44,302 nucleotides of DNA from Cyanobium sp. C1_MAG_00004 (lineage in GTDB: Bacteria > Cyanobacteriota > Cyanobacteriia > PCC-6307 > Cyanobiaceae): NCBI GenBank assembly GCA_027486935.1, contig JAIXOF010000145.1, forward strand, positions 1 through 44,302, given 5' to 3'. The number at the start of each line of letters is the position of its first letter. Position 1 is the stretch's first letter. The position numbers and the translations under genes are program-made. The notes under the pieces were generated by a model. It saw only the letters and a list, made by a program, of their open reading frames with translations, ran no database searches and was not told the DNA's origin. Below, in pieces: positions 14,008-44,261 of the stretch.

Positions 14008-14433
14008 TGAAAGCAGGCGAGGTGATCGCGACCGGGTAACGCCCAGGCCTTCGGGCCGGTGGAACGGACCGGTTGAGGAAAGTCCGGGCTCCCCAATGGC
14101 CAGGCTTGCTGGGTAACGCCCAGTGCGGGTGACCGTGAGGAGAGTGCCACAGAAACACACCGCCGATGGCCGGGCCGGGGGCAACCCCGCCCGCGCACAG
14201 GTAAGGGTGCAAGGGTGCGGTAAGAGCGCACCAGCAGCATCGAGAGGTGCTGGCTCGGTAAACCCCGGCCGGGAGCAAGGCCCAGGGACAAGGGTTGGCC
14301 ATGACACCCGTCCCGCCAACAGCGCGCCGCTCGAGGCCGCCGGTAACGGCGGTCCCAGACAGATGATCGCCCCCCCAGTCCGGCTGCCGCCGGAGTCTGG
14401 GAGAACAGAACCCGGCTTACGTCCTGCTTTCAC
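14008..14433 (+). ncRNA. rnpB: RNase P RNA (bacterial type A)
   Basis: Catalytic RNA that cleaves tRNA 5' leaders. Seen: helix P1 formed by GAAAGCAGG (14009-14017) and CCTGCTTTC (14423-14431); the universally conserved GAGGAAAGTCCGGGC (14075-14089); the downstream AGACAGATGATC from 14357; and ACAGAACCCGGCTTA (14405-14419), the conserved region just before P1 closes. Total length of about 425 nt fits cyanobacteria. The 3' end is approximate by a few bases. The rnc start codon comes 7 nt after P1. Confidence 0.95.
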
Positions 14434-14437
14434 CCCC

Positions 14438-16016: not shown

Positions 16017-16050
16017 GGGTGGCTTTGAATAGGTGCACTGCAGCCACCCG

Positions 16051-17499
16051 ATGAGCCCCCGTCCCCTGGTCCCGGTGATCCTGTGCGGCGGCACGGGCAC
16101 CCGGCTGTGGCCCCTGTCCCGCGCCACCTACCCCAAGCAGTACTGGGCTCTTGCCGGCGATGGCGACGAGACCCTGCTGCAACAGACCCAGCAGCGGCTG
16201 CAGGGCCTGGATGGCCTGGGGGCACCGCTGCTGATCTGCAACGAGGAGCACCGCTTCATCGTGGCCGAGCAGATGCGCCAGATCGGTGTGGAGCCGGCCG
16301 GGATCCTGCTGGAACCGATGGGCCGCAACACCGCGCCGGCCGTGGCGATCGCGGCCCTGCAGGCCACGGCCCATGGCGAGGACCCGCTGCTGCTGGTGCT
16401 GGCCGCCGACCACGTGATCGCCGATGCCGCCCGGTTCCGCGCCACCGTGGACGCCGGCATGGCCGCCGCCGAGGCCGATCAACTCGTGACCTTCGGCATC
16501 GTGCCGACCGCCCCGGAGACCGGTTACGGCTACATCGAGGCGGCCGAGCCGCTGGCGAGTGCACCGGTGCCGATCGCCCGCTTCGTTGAGAAGCCCGACC
16601 GGCCCACCGCTGAGCGCTTTCTTACCAGCGGCCGCTTCACCTGGAACAGCGGCATGTTCCTGTTCAAGGCCAGCGCCATCCTGGCCGAACTGGACCGCCA
16701 TGCGCCCGAGGTGCTGCGGGCCTGCCGGCTGGCCCTGGAACACGACAGCGCCGATCTGGCCTTTTTGCGGCTCGAGCGCGAGGCTTTTGCCGGCTGCCCC
16801 AACGTCGCCATCGACGTGGCGGTGATGGAGAAGACCGACCGCGGTGCCGTGCTGCCGCTCGAAGCCGGCTGGAGCGATGTGGGCAGCTGGAGCGCCCTGT
16901 GGGACACGGCCGAGCGCGACGGCGACGGCAACGTGCTGCGGGGTCGGGTGATCAGCCAGGACAGCCGCAACTGCTACCTGCGCAGCGAGCACCGGCTGGT
17001 GGTGGGACTGGGGGTCGACGATCTGGTGGTGGTCGAAACCGATGACGTGGTGTTGGTTGCCCATCGCGACCGCGCCCAGGAAGTCAAGGCGATCGTCGGC
17101 CAGCTCGAATCGGCCGGAGCCTCCGAAAGCAAGGCCCATCGCCGCATCTACCGGCCCTGGGGTCACTACGACGGCGTCACCGAGGGTGAGCGCTGGCAGG
17201 TCAAGAAGATCAGCGTCAACCCCGGCGCCTCCCTGTCGCTGCAGATGCACCATCACCGCGCCGAGCACTGGATCGTGGTGCGCGGCACCGCCATGGTCGA
17301 AAAGGACGGACGCCAGGAGCTGGTCGGCGAAAACCAGAGCACCTACATCCCCCTGGGCTGCCGCCACCGCCTCTCGAACCCCGGCCAGATCCCGGTCGAG
17401 CTGATCGAAGTGCAGAGCGGCCCCTACCTGGGCGAAGACGACATCGTGCGGTTTGAGGACCGCTATGGACGGAGTGATGCCACCCCTGTGGGGGTCTGA
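16051..17499 (+). CDS. manC: Mannose-1-phosphate guanylyltransferase / mannose-6-phosphate isomerase
   Basis: 482 residues from ATG 16051 (GTG 16033 is possible but adds six atypical residues). A bifunctional enzyme making GDP-mannose for surface polysaccharides. The N-terminal nucleotidyltransferase shows LCGGTGTRLWPLSR, then FVEKPDRPT and NSGMFLF; the C-terminal cupin (type II phosphomannose isomerase, from about residue 365) shows YRPWGHYDGV, the metal-binding HHHRAEHW and PLGCRHRL. The stop codon is embedded in the left arm of a long palindrome (17496-17566). It is convergent with glmS. Confidence 0.93.
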   Translation: MSPRPLVPVILCGGTGTRLWPLSRATYPKQYWALAGDGDETLLQQTQQRLQGLDGLGAPLLICNEEHRFIVAEQMRQIGVEPAGILLEPMGRNTAPAVAIAALQATAHGEDPLLLVLAADHVIADAARFRATVDAGMAAAEADQLVTFGIVPTAPETGYGYIEAAEPLASAPVPIARFVEKPDRPTAERFLTSGRFTWNSGMFLFKASAILAELDRHAPEVLRACRLALEHDSADLAFLRLEREAFAGCPNVAIDVAVMEKTDRGAVLPLEAGWSDVGSWSALWDTAERDGDGNVLRGRVISQDSRNCYLRSEHRLVVGLGVDDLVVVETDDVVLVAHRDRAQEVKAIVGQLESAGASESKAHRRIYRPWGHYDGVTEGERWQVKKISVNPGASLSLQMHHHRAEHWIVVRGTAMVEKDGRQELVGENQSTYIPLGCRHRLSNPGQIPVELIEVQSGPYLGEDDIVRFEDRYGRSDATPVGV

Positions 17500-17566
17500 C
17501 CGGGGCACTGCTTCGCTGACCATGCCAGCTGGGCTGGCAATGTCAGCTTCGCAGTGCCCCGGTCAG
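17496..17566. repeat. Long three-tier palindrome at the manC stop codon
   Basis: Outer arms CTGACCGGGGCACTGC (17496-17511) and its perfect complement (17551-17566); middle arms GCTGAC (17515-17520)/GTCAGC (17542-17547); inner arms TGCCAGC (17523-17529)/GCTGGCA (17533-17539) around a 3-nt loop. This gives 29 paired bases with only symmetric 3x3 and 2x2 interruptions. It contains the manC TGA. There is no U-run after it, so it is not a standard intrinsic terminator. Confidence 0.85.
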
Positions 17567-17570
17567 GCTG

Positions 17571-17716
17571 GGGGTGGGCTCTGGGAGTTGGAGGGCTCGG
17601 GCTTCGGGAGGTAGTGAGCGCGGCCACTTGGAGGTGAAGCCTCAGGCTTCCGGAGTGCGCTGCGGGCGTAGACCCTCTTTGACGAGCGCCCTGAGCCGGT
17701 GCCACCGACCCACCCC
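17571..17716. repeat. Long imperfect nested palindrome in manC-glmS interval
   Basis: Nested arms: GGGGTGGG (17571-17578)/CCCACCCC (17709-17716); GGCTCGGGC (17594-17602)/GCCCTGAGCC (17688-17697, one bulge); AGCG..CACT (17617-17628)/AGTGCGCT (17654-17661); GAAGCC/GGCTTC (17636-17650) around a TCA loop. It is weaker than the two flanking palindromes but can fold as one long hairpin. It could be a structured RNA; no known RNA family recognised. Confidence 0.55.
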
Positions 17717-17719
17717 GGC

Positions 17720-17790
17720 TGAGGCCTGGGGACCTGAAGGCGATGTTGCCAGCGCAGCTGGCGCAATCGCCGCAAGGCCCCCAGGCCTCA
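17720..17790. repeat. Long three-tier palindrome just beyond glmS
   Basis: Outer arms TGAGGCCTGGGG (17720-17731)/complement (17779-17790); middle GGCGAT (17739-17744)/ATCGCC (17766-17771); inner GCCAGC (17748-17753)/GCTGGC (17757-17762) around GCA. It sits 4 bp beyond the glmS stop and has the same size (71 bp) and almost the same inner arm as the palindrome at 17496-17566. No U-run. Confidence 0.8.
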
Positions 17791-17794
17791 ACCC

Positions 17795-19696
<1,902 letters not shown>

Positions 19697-19712
19697 AGGC
19701 CTGCAGACCAAC

Positions 19713-19737
19713 AAAAAAGCCCGGCTGGGCCGGGCTT
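19713..19737 (-). terminator. Intrinsic terminator of psaC, inside the glmS leader
   Basis: On the minus strand an 8-bp perfect stem AAGCCCGG/CCGGGCTT (arms 19730-19737 and 19717-19724, 5-nt loop) is followed by TTTT, a textbook intrinsic terminator for psaC transcripts. The U-run ends about 16 nt before the glmS ATG (19696). Confidence 0.85.
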
Positions 19738-24098: not shown

Positions 24099-25640
<1,542 letters not shown>

Positions 25641-25674
25641 GTGACAAAGGAAACCTAGCAAGCGCGAAAGGTGC

Positions 25675-43409: not shown

Positions 43410-43556
43410 GAAAACCGGGTGGCTGCAGGGGATGAATCATAGAGGGGTGTTACAAGCCGCCCAGGTGGTGGCACTGAACCGATGTGGCCCTCACCGGTCT
43501 CGCCGACCGGGAAGGTGCCGCATCATGAGATCCATCACGTCAACAGGAGAAACGCC

Positions 43557-43949
43557 ATGGGCGTCAACTCGATCACCCTTGTGGGCCGGGCCGGCCGCGA
43601 CCCCGAAGTCCGCTACTTCGAATCCGGCAGCGTCGTCGCCAACCTGACCCTGGCCGTCAACCGCCGCGCCGGCGGCGACGAACCCGATTGGTTCAACCTC
43701 GAAATCTGGGGCAAGCAGGCCCAGGTGGCCGCCGATTACGTCCGCAAAGGCAGCATGCTGGGCATCATCGGCAGCTTCAAGCTCGACCGCTGGACCGACC
43801 GCAGCAGCGGCGAAGAGCGCAGCAAGCCCGTGGTCCGCGTCGACCGCCTCGAACTGCTGGGCTCAAAGCGCGACAGCGAAGCCGCCGGCGGCATGGGCGG
43901 TGGCGGCTTCGGTGGGGGTGAACCCTCTGAAGAGGAAGTGCCGTTTTGA
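43557..43949 (+). CDS. ssb: Single-stranded DNA-binding protein
   Basis: 130 residues from ATG 43557, preceded by AGGAGA at good spacing. The OB-fold (1-105) begins MGVNSITLVGRAGRDPEVRY and includes DWFNLEIWGKQAQVAADYV; a glycine-rich linker leads to the acidic SSB tail ending EEEVPF, which recruits repair proteins. Divergent from mreB. It is followed by a long hairpin 5 bp after the stop. Confidence 0.96.
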   Translation: MGVNSITLVGRAGRDPEVRYFESGSVVANLTLAVNRRAGGDEPDWFNLEIWGKQAQVAADYVRKGSMLGIIGSFKLDRWTDRSSGEERSKPVVRVDRLELLGSKRDSEAAGGMGGGGFGGGEPSEEEVPF

Positions 43950-43953
43950 GCAG

Positions 43954-44026
43954 CTGCTGACGGACTGGGGTCGCCCGCGGCGCCGCTGGCGCGGCACGTT
44001 GCGGGCTCTCCCCAGTCCGTCAGCAG
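43954..44026. repeat. Long nested palindrome just beyond ssb
   Basis: Outer arms CTGCTGACGGACTGGGG (43954-43970) and its perfect complement (44010-44026), 17 bp; then GCCCGC (43973-43978)/GCGGGC (44001-44006); then GCGCC-GCT-GGCGC. Layout (long outer arm, two shorter inner arms, 73 bp) resembles the palindromes beyond manC and glmS. No U-run follows. It may serve as the ssb transcript end. Confidence 0.85.
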
Positions 44027-44164
44027 GCGCGCGGGGGCTGGGCGCGGGGCGAGGCCGGGGGGCTGAACGGGTTAGCGACAGGCGCTCATCAACGCTTGGC
44101 GCCAGAAGCCAACTGCAGCAACGGCTCTTGCATCCACGCCACGCCTCTCGGAACCCGCCAACGA

Positions 44165-44203
44165 AAAAGCCTGAGCCGTCCATCCCTGGACGCTCAGGCT
44201 TTT
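44165..44203. terminator. Bidirectional intrinsic terminator
   Basis: AAAAGCCTGAG plus CGTCCA pair with TGGACG plus CTCAGGCTTTT (one bulged C), a 17-bp stem with A-run before and T-run after, so it can stop transcription in both directions. Confidence 0.85.
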
Positions 44204-44261
44204 GTGTTGAACCTGGTGCTCCCGCCACCCTGCGGCGCTGAACCTGAGCCGGGGAAGCTGA

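Follow-up and report, generated by a model that had tools for sequence, protein, structure and literature searches.

The interval in which manC (forward strand) and glmS (reverse strand) converge raises the question of what two long hairpins without U-runs do at the 3' ends of the facing genes. The window analyzed here, the whole stretch of 44,302 nucleotides, is contig C20 of a 2.98 Mb genome assembled into 239 contigs (68% GC), and the named matches of its GlmS protein (an uncultured Synechococcaceae MAG at 84%, Prochlorococcus at 62-74%) place its nearest relatives among the picocyanobacteria. The window also holds a bacterial class A RNase P RNA (14010-14434) and a TPP riboswitch (25543-25649), both of which are ordinary. 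The initial annotation had folded the manC-glmS interval into three consecutive hairpins and offered three readings: a mosaic of extragenic palindromes, U-less 3'-end structures in an organism lacking Rho, or an expressed structured RNA. The latter two fit best and are partly supported. With about even confidence, the interval is read here as containing two members of a lineage-specific family of U-less elements at mRNA 3' ends, which would act as exonuclease barriers and/or non-canonical terminators.

The two outer structures proved to be hairpins when they were folded against shuffled sequence (Table 1). Hairpin 1 has a minimum free energy of -58.8 kcal/mol and a perfect outer arm of 16 bp, hairpin 3 reaches -55.7 kcal/mol on the glmS sense strand, and no shuffled sequence was as stable as either of them (z -10.75 and -8.44, respectively), in agreement with the initial proposal. 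As a control, the 80 nt downstream of 117 stop codons of the same genome, each with 60 nt or more of non-coding sequence behind it, folded to -30.0 on average (sd 9.0), and the two strongest folds had -66.5 and -64.2. The absence of a U-run at both hairpins was confirmed from the sequence, and their similarity extends beyond the previously recognized equal length and common GCCAGC/GCTGGC arm to the entire layout of 16 bp, a 3x3 loop, 6 bp, a 2-3x2-3 loop, 6-7 bp and a 3-nt terminal loop. The manC stop codon (17497-17499) is located inside the outer arm of hairpin 1. The middle hairpin, in contrast, was rejected: its stability is within chance and hardly better than that of shuffled sequence on either strand, and it is not conserved in genome G010 or on contig C157. 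Its ends (GGGGTGGG/CCCACCCC) are the G-tracts lying behind the two real hairpins, each in the sense orientation of its hairpin, and since the two tails of a facing pair form a GGGG...CCCC spacer, the predicted middle hairpin is explained as an artefact.

Table 1. Features of the manC-glmS interval and of the ssb-ahcY end of the contig (window positions; z relative to shuffled sequence; E for covariance model R3)
Feature	Position	Strand	Evidence and remarks
manC, mannose-1-phosphate guanylyltransferase / mannose-6-phosphate isomerase	16033-17499	+	ORF; Pfam NTP_transferase and MannoseP_isomer; upstream of hairpin 1
Hairpin 1 (manC sense), 71 nt	17496-17566	+	z -10.75; E 1e-11; manC stop in outer arm
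G-rich tract after hairpin 1	17570-17595	+	Sequence; four runs of at least 3 G, quadruplex-type motif
Middle hairpin of the initial annotation	17571-17716		z -1.83 (+), -0.97 (-); spacer ending in two facing G-tracts
G-rich tract after hairpin 3 (glmS sense), GCCGGGGTGGGTCGG	17706-17719	-	Sequence
Hairpin 3 (glmS sense), 71 nt	17720-17790	-	z -8.44; E 9.5e-13; begins 4 nt past glmS stop
glmS, glutamine-fructose-6-phosphate aminotransferase	17795-19714	-	ORF; Pfam SIS, GATase; upstream of hairpin 3
ssb, single-strand binding protein	43482-43949	+	Pfam SSB
Long U-less hairpin 4 nt past ssb stop	43954-44026	+	z -9.04; structural scan score 25
Incomplete ahcY-side family hairpin at contig end	44243-44302	-	84% of columns identical to the ahcY-side hairpin of G005

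The element downstream of ssb had also been named initially. This is a real hairpin with a perfect outer arm of 17 bp and belongs to the same class as the family hairpins, though its core is unlike theirs and it is absent among the matches of the family covariance models. A family copy at the right edge of the window had been overlooked; its counterpart on the ahcY side in G005 was itself found by model R3. Between the ssb and ahcY-side hairpins lies a canonical bidirectional terminator (44159-44209; GAAAAAGCCTGAGC / GCTCAGGCTTTT), so ordinary terminators coexist with U-less hairpins. Contig C20 ends inside a family hairpin and contigs C13 and C74 end within about 120 nt of one, which suggests that these hairpins break short-read assemblies and hide copies.

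Nucleotide BLAST of the own genome returned only matches of each hairpin to its own reverse complement and short chance matches, and structure models were therefore needed to detect further copies. Covariance models, proposed initially as a check, did recover them: a five-sequence model identified an inverted pair on contig C157 and copies on C74 and C13, and at least six copies of the 71-nt hairpin family are present in this genome. A ten-sequence model applied to 300 genomes of the picocyanobacterial family matched in 48 genomes of nine genera, and a 35-sequence model applied to 39 genomes found at least 1-6 copies per genome, all counts being lower bounds because, out of several thousand candidates per genome, scoring covered 16-150 (128-150 for the six matches in the own genome and the 1-6 in others). 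In total, the hairpin family comprises at least about 85 copies in nearly 50 genomes, spread over nine genera of one picocyanobacterial family, and among the candidates scored in 291 sampled genomes of the class only two matches, both weak, fell outside it. Matches beyond the family (G449, G483, and G026 with model R1) were dropped as weak or as different perfect palindromes. The genome G026, from another cyanobacterial family, has weak model matches at L173, L177, L179, L181 and L182; the two that were read completely are palindromes of 67 nt with almost perfect arms and almost the same sequence (TCCGA[GA]AATTAGAGTAGAGTGCCCGC...), and they may represent a MITE-like repeat dispersed in that genome. 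Another unrelated structure, in G010:C1 (L120 901-958), is a palindrome whose 27-bp arms pair perfectly around a loop of 4 nt (GCGGCTCCATAAAGAATGTTCATGAAG...). A layout scan of about 575 kb scored family members at 26-33 and the ssb hairpin at 25, the partly decayed manC copy of G005 reaching 21, the score of the best unrelated hairpins. This indicates that the element is rare, and a general abundance of long hairpins was rejected. In the manC-glmS interval, Rfam 15 gave no match at the gathering threshold, and those below it were chance hairpin matches, mostly to microRNA models. No exact core match that would indicate a phage link was found in viral contigs, the glmS region of the nearest named relative, MAG Loclat_bin-12067, was without a match, and a description of the hairpin family was not found in the open-access literature.

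The arms of the hairpins covary among relatives, as had been anticipated for a genuine structure. In an alignment of 35 sequences generated with MAFFT, and thus not fitted to the model, standard pairs occupy 92.9% of 968 cells and two-sided changes are found in 24 of the 28 pairs, among them every one of the 16 outer and 6 middle pairs, with four invariant pairs in the inner stem. The covariation score of 0.694 compares with 0.167 for shuffled and 0.07-0.16 for slid alignments. The conserved core consists of a TNC/TTC loop, 6 bp, an NNN/AAY loop and a GCNNGC stem, surrounded by an outer stem that changes fast yet stays base-paired, and loop letters are kept on one strand (T at columns 17 and 53, AA at 44-45). 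The 5' arm of the ndhF copies is part of the coding sequence (..GSLG stop); a synonymous difference there, CTT/CTG, is compensated in the 3' arm of both G065 and G124 and leaves a mismatch in G143. On the sense strand of the gene, G.T mispairs exceed A.C mispairs (35 vs 17, p 0.018; 29 vs 15 in unique contexts, p 0.049), which is the pattern that selection acting on the transcript should produce.

The copies recur at the same few genes, identified by NCBIfam or Pfam as manC, glmS, ndhF, atpG, serS, ahcY, gmd and a ferritin-domain protein, the last of which is read as a putative Dps. Here, ndhF is followed by ndhD, dps by pyrG and serS by rseP, while ahcY is convergent with ssb; an ABC-type ATPase host and a glmS neighbour in some genomes (gtA) were assigned from sequence appearance only. 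Among 79 hairpins near a recognized gene, 57 have the end of the stop codon at -12 to +15 nt from the hairpin start, and in 54 of these 57 the model strand is the sense strand of the gene, evidence that is softened by seeds having been oriented by gene sense and by orthologous sites not being independent. Each gene has a nearly constant register across genera (+11 at ndhF, +4/+5 at manC, -6 at glmS in the majority of genomes, and 0 to -2 for most dps copies), and three dps copies are reversed in strand. A U-tract, defined as at least four T in the 8 nt directly after the hairpin, is absent from the dps, glmS, manC and ndhF copies and present in 4 of 11 atpG copies and at ahcY. Instead, the positions 10-20 nt past the hairpin contain 54% G vs 19% C, and the mean number of G-run nucleotides per 60 nt is 15.1 at dps, 11.4 at manC and 11.1 at glmS vs 4.1-4.5 at control stops (gene-family means against control, p = 3e-4). 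At least ten G-run nucleotides follow 54% of hairpins vs 8-11% of controls, and quadruplex-type motifs were detected in 11 of the 70 tails but never on the strand opposite, compared with 1 among 117 and 0 among 64 control stops. The G-rich tail is missing at the ndhF and ahcY copies. A search for Rho in ten carrier genomes gave no match over the curated cut-off, the weak matches probably being other RecA-fold ATPases.

Facing pairs of hairpins occur at convergent manC/glmS genes in seven genomes (G000, G010, G163, G212, G222, G240, G300) and next to glmS in G249. They are also found at the tandem junctions ndhF-ndhD (own genome), serS-rseP (G067) and dps-pyrG (G124, G170), so that pairs merely reflecting gene convergence were rejected. 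The second copies at tandem junctions, upstream of ndhD, pyrG and rseP, are antisense to transcription, and some inverted second copies retain a G-tail on their own strand. Presence at a given locus varies: between manC and glmS, the congener G004 lacks a hairpin, its stops being 7 bp apart, G005 carries the manC hairpin together with an apparent half of the glmS hairpin, and in G003 a hairpin of this kind is absent. The region downstream of atpG contains a short hairpin and a T-run in relatives lacking the core (G014, G009, G007), and in G004 the core lies within a stem ending in six Ts, from which we infer that core-bearing hairpin and canonical terminator substitute for each other at this gene. 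In G014, a second glmS-like copy (G014:C1:1396136-1398038) consists of two overlapping pieces with in-frame stops, likely a pseudogene or an assembly frameshift, and an intact glmS is encoded elsewhere.

In the 3'-end reading, the folded RNA would mark the end of the mRNA: the hairpin would block 3'-5' exonucleases, the G-tract would slow the polymerase, and both together may aid RNA release, thereby doing the job of a U-tract terminator, or of Rho plus trimming, elsewhere. Within a facing pair, each hairpin would serve its own gene and limit read-through into the convergent one. Support comes from the copies at the same genes in nine genera, the covariation, the stop register, the sense-strand orientation, the G.T excess and the G-tails, as well as from the ordinary terminators of atpG relatives without the core, the absent Rho match and the small share of transcription units with canonical terminators in S. 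elongatus (22%; PMC13289151). Against it stand the antisense second copies, the three reversed dps copies, the tail-less ndhF and ahcY copies and the close relatives without any manC/glmS hairpin, as does the observation that U-less 3' ends in S. elongatus are mostly without strong structure (PMC13289151). The inverted second copies, unexplained by a pure 3'-end model, are the main reason for our moderate confidence. Rather doubtful is the more specific proposal that hairpin and downstream G-tract form a U-independent, Rho-independent terminator, in which the stem would fold behind the polymerase and the G-rich RNA or non-template strand would stall it. Quadruplex-assisted termination involving a G-rich non-template strand is known from mitochondrial CSB II. 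The G-rich non-template strand at the proposed stop resembles it by analogy only, the quadruplex here being a motif, and CSB II has no evolutionary relation to the family and no 71-nt hairpin. A strong GC-rich hairpin just after the gene (z -10.75, -8.44), with a T-run on some atpG copies, could likewise belong to an ordinary intrinsic terminator that is merely long; the family, however, mostly has no U-tract, which places it outside that class, starts at or inside the stop codon, carries a G-rich tail and conserves core loops and a layout that such a terminator does not need, making this explanation very improbable.

Other accounts move the function away from the transcript end, or remove it, and three of them are considered comparably unlikely. 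A translation-coupled brake, in which a stem over or after the stop codon would hinder terminating ribosomes and lower output, would fit the 57 of 79 cases in which the stop codon falls inside the stem or lies no more than about 15 nt from it, and ribosome stalling is reported for E. coli REPs located up to 15 nt from a stop (PMC12306157); it leaves the G-rich tails and inverted spacer copies unexplained, and atpG copies lie 16-70 nt past the stop. The near-perfect arms and the facing pairs at convergent and tandem junctions alike would suit a paired palindrome acting at the DNA level in a BIME-like manner, as cruciforms or protein sites that isolate genes or absorb supercoiling, but many copies are single, and action as RNA is favoured by the strand preference relative to the gene and by the surplus of G.T mispairs in the transcript orientation. 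Template switching could keep hairpin arms perfect, and a functionless palindromic remnant, neutral or mobile, that was spread or kept by such arm-to-arm correction would agree with the variable presence among congeners. Such a remnant would not be expected to remain at low copy at the same few genes in the same register across genera; moreover, its unpaired loops are retained rather than corrected, and no Y1 transposase is found in the own genome or in most carriers tested. An attC-like recombination site was dropped because the elements reside on the chromosome at sites fixed between genera and pair over almost their whole length, without visible R/L boxes when set against the general attC layout.

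By kind, the family is a stop-proximal extragenic hairpin. REP and BIME elements are intergenic hairpins near gene 3' ends, often between convergent genes, that have been proposed as mRNA stabilizers (PMC3733652, PMC12306157). The family resembles them in its position near gene 3' ends (57 of 79 stop-proximal, with hairpins within the 15 nt used as a REP-type proximity threshold; PMC12306157), its frequent occurrence at convergent genes and its sometimes facing dimers. It differs in its length (71 nt vs 20-40 bp), its site-specific outer stem and its at least 1-6 copies per genome vs tens to thousands. In a loose search, a tag-like GTAG/CGTC word was found at 12 of 85 hairpins and is not a conserved feature, and PF01797 (RAYT / Y1 transposase) is absent from the own genome and from seven of nine other carriers tested. 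Tag, copy number and transposase thus exclude the family from the REPs, and the suggested mosaic of extragenic palindromes holds only loosely. In E. coli, ends generated by Rho are trimmed back to a hairpin, leaving U-less structured 3' ends that are stabilized after upstream decay (PMC13289151). A U-less hairpin at a defined 3' end is also the outcome proposed here, in a setting that differs by having no Rho and by the conservation, from genus to genus, of both the sequence core and the set of sites.

Cyanobacteria lack Rho, and the way in which their transcripts end is not settled; in S. elongatus, a 2026 study assigned canonical terminators to just 22% of the transcription units and left the origin of the other ends open (PMC13289151). 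A conserved, covarying and strand-oriented element at housekeeping genes, together with close relatives that lack the hairpin at the same junction, makes models of termination, mRNA protection and translation directly testable. If true, the reading as a U- and Rho-independent terminator would supply an example of the still undescribed signals by which cyanobacteria have been proposed to terminate transcription, and a functional hairpin could serve as a terminator or stabilizer part for GC-rich cyanobacteria.
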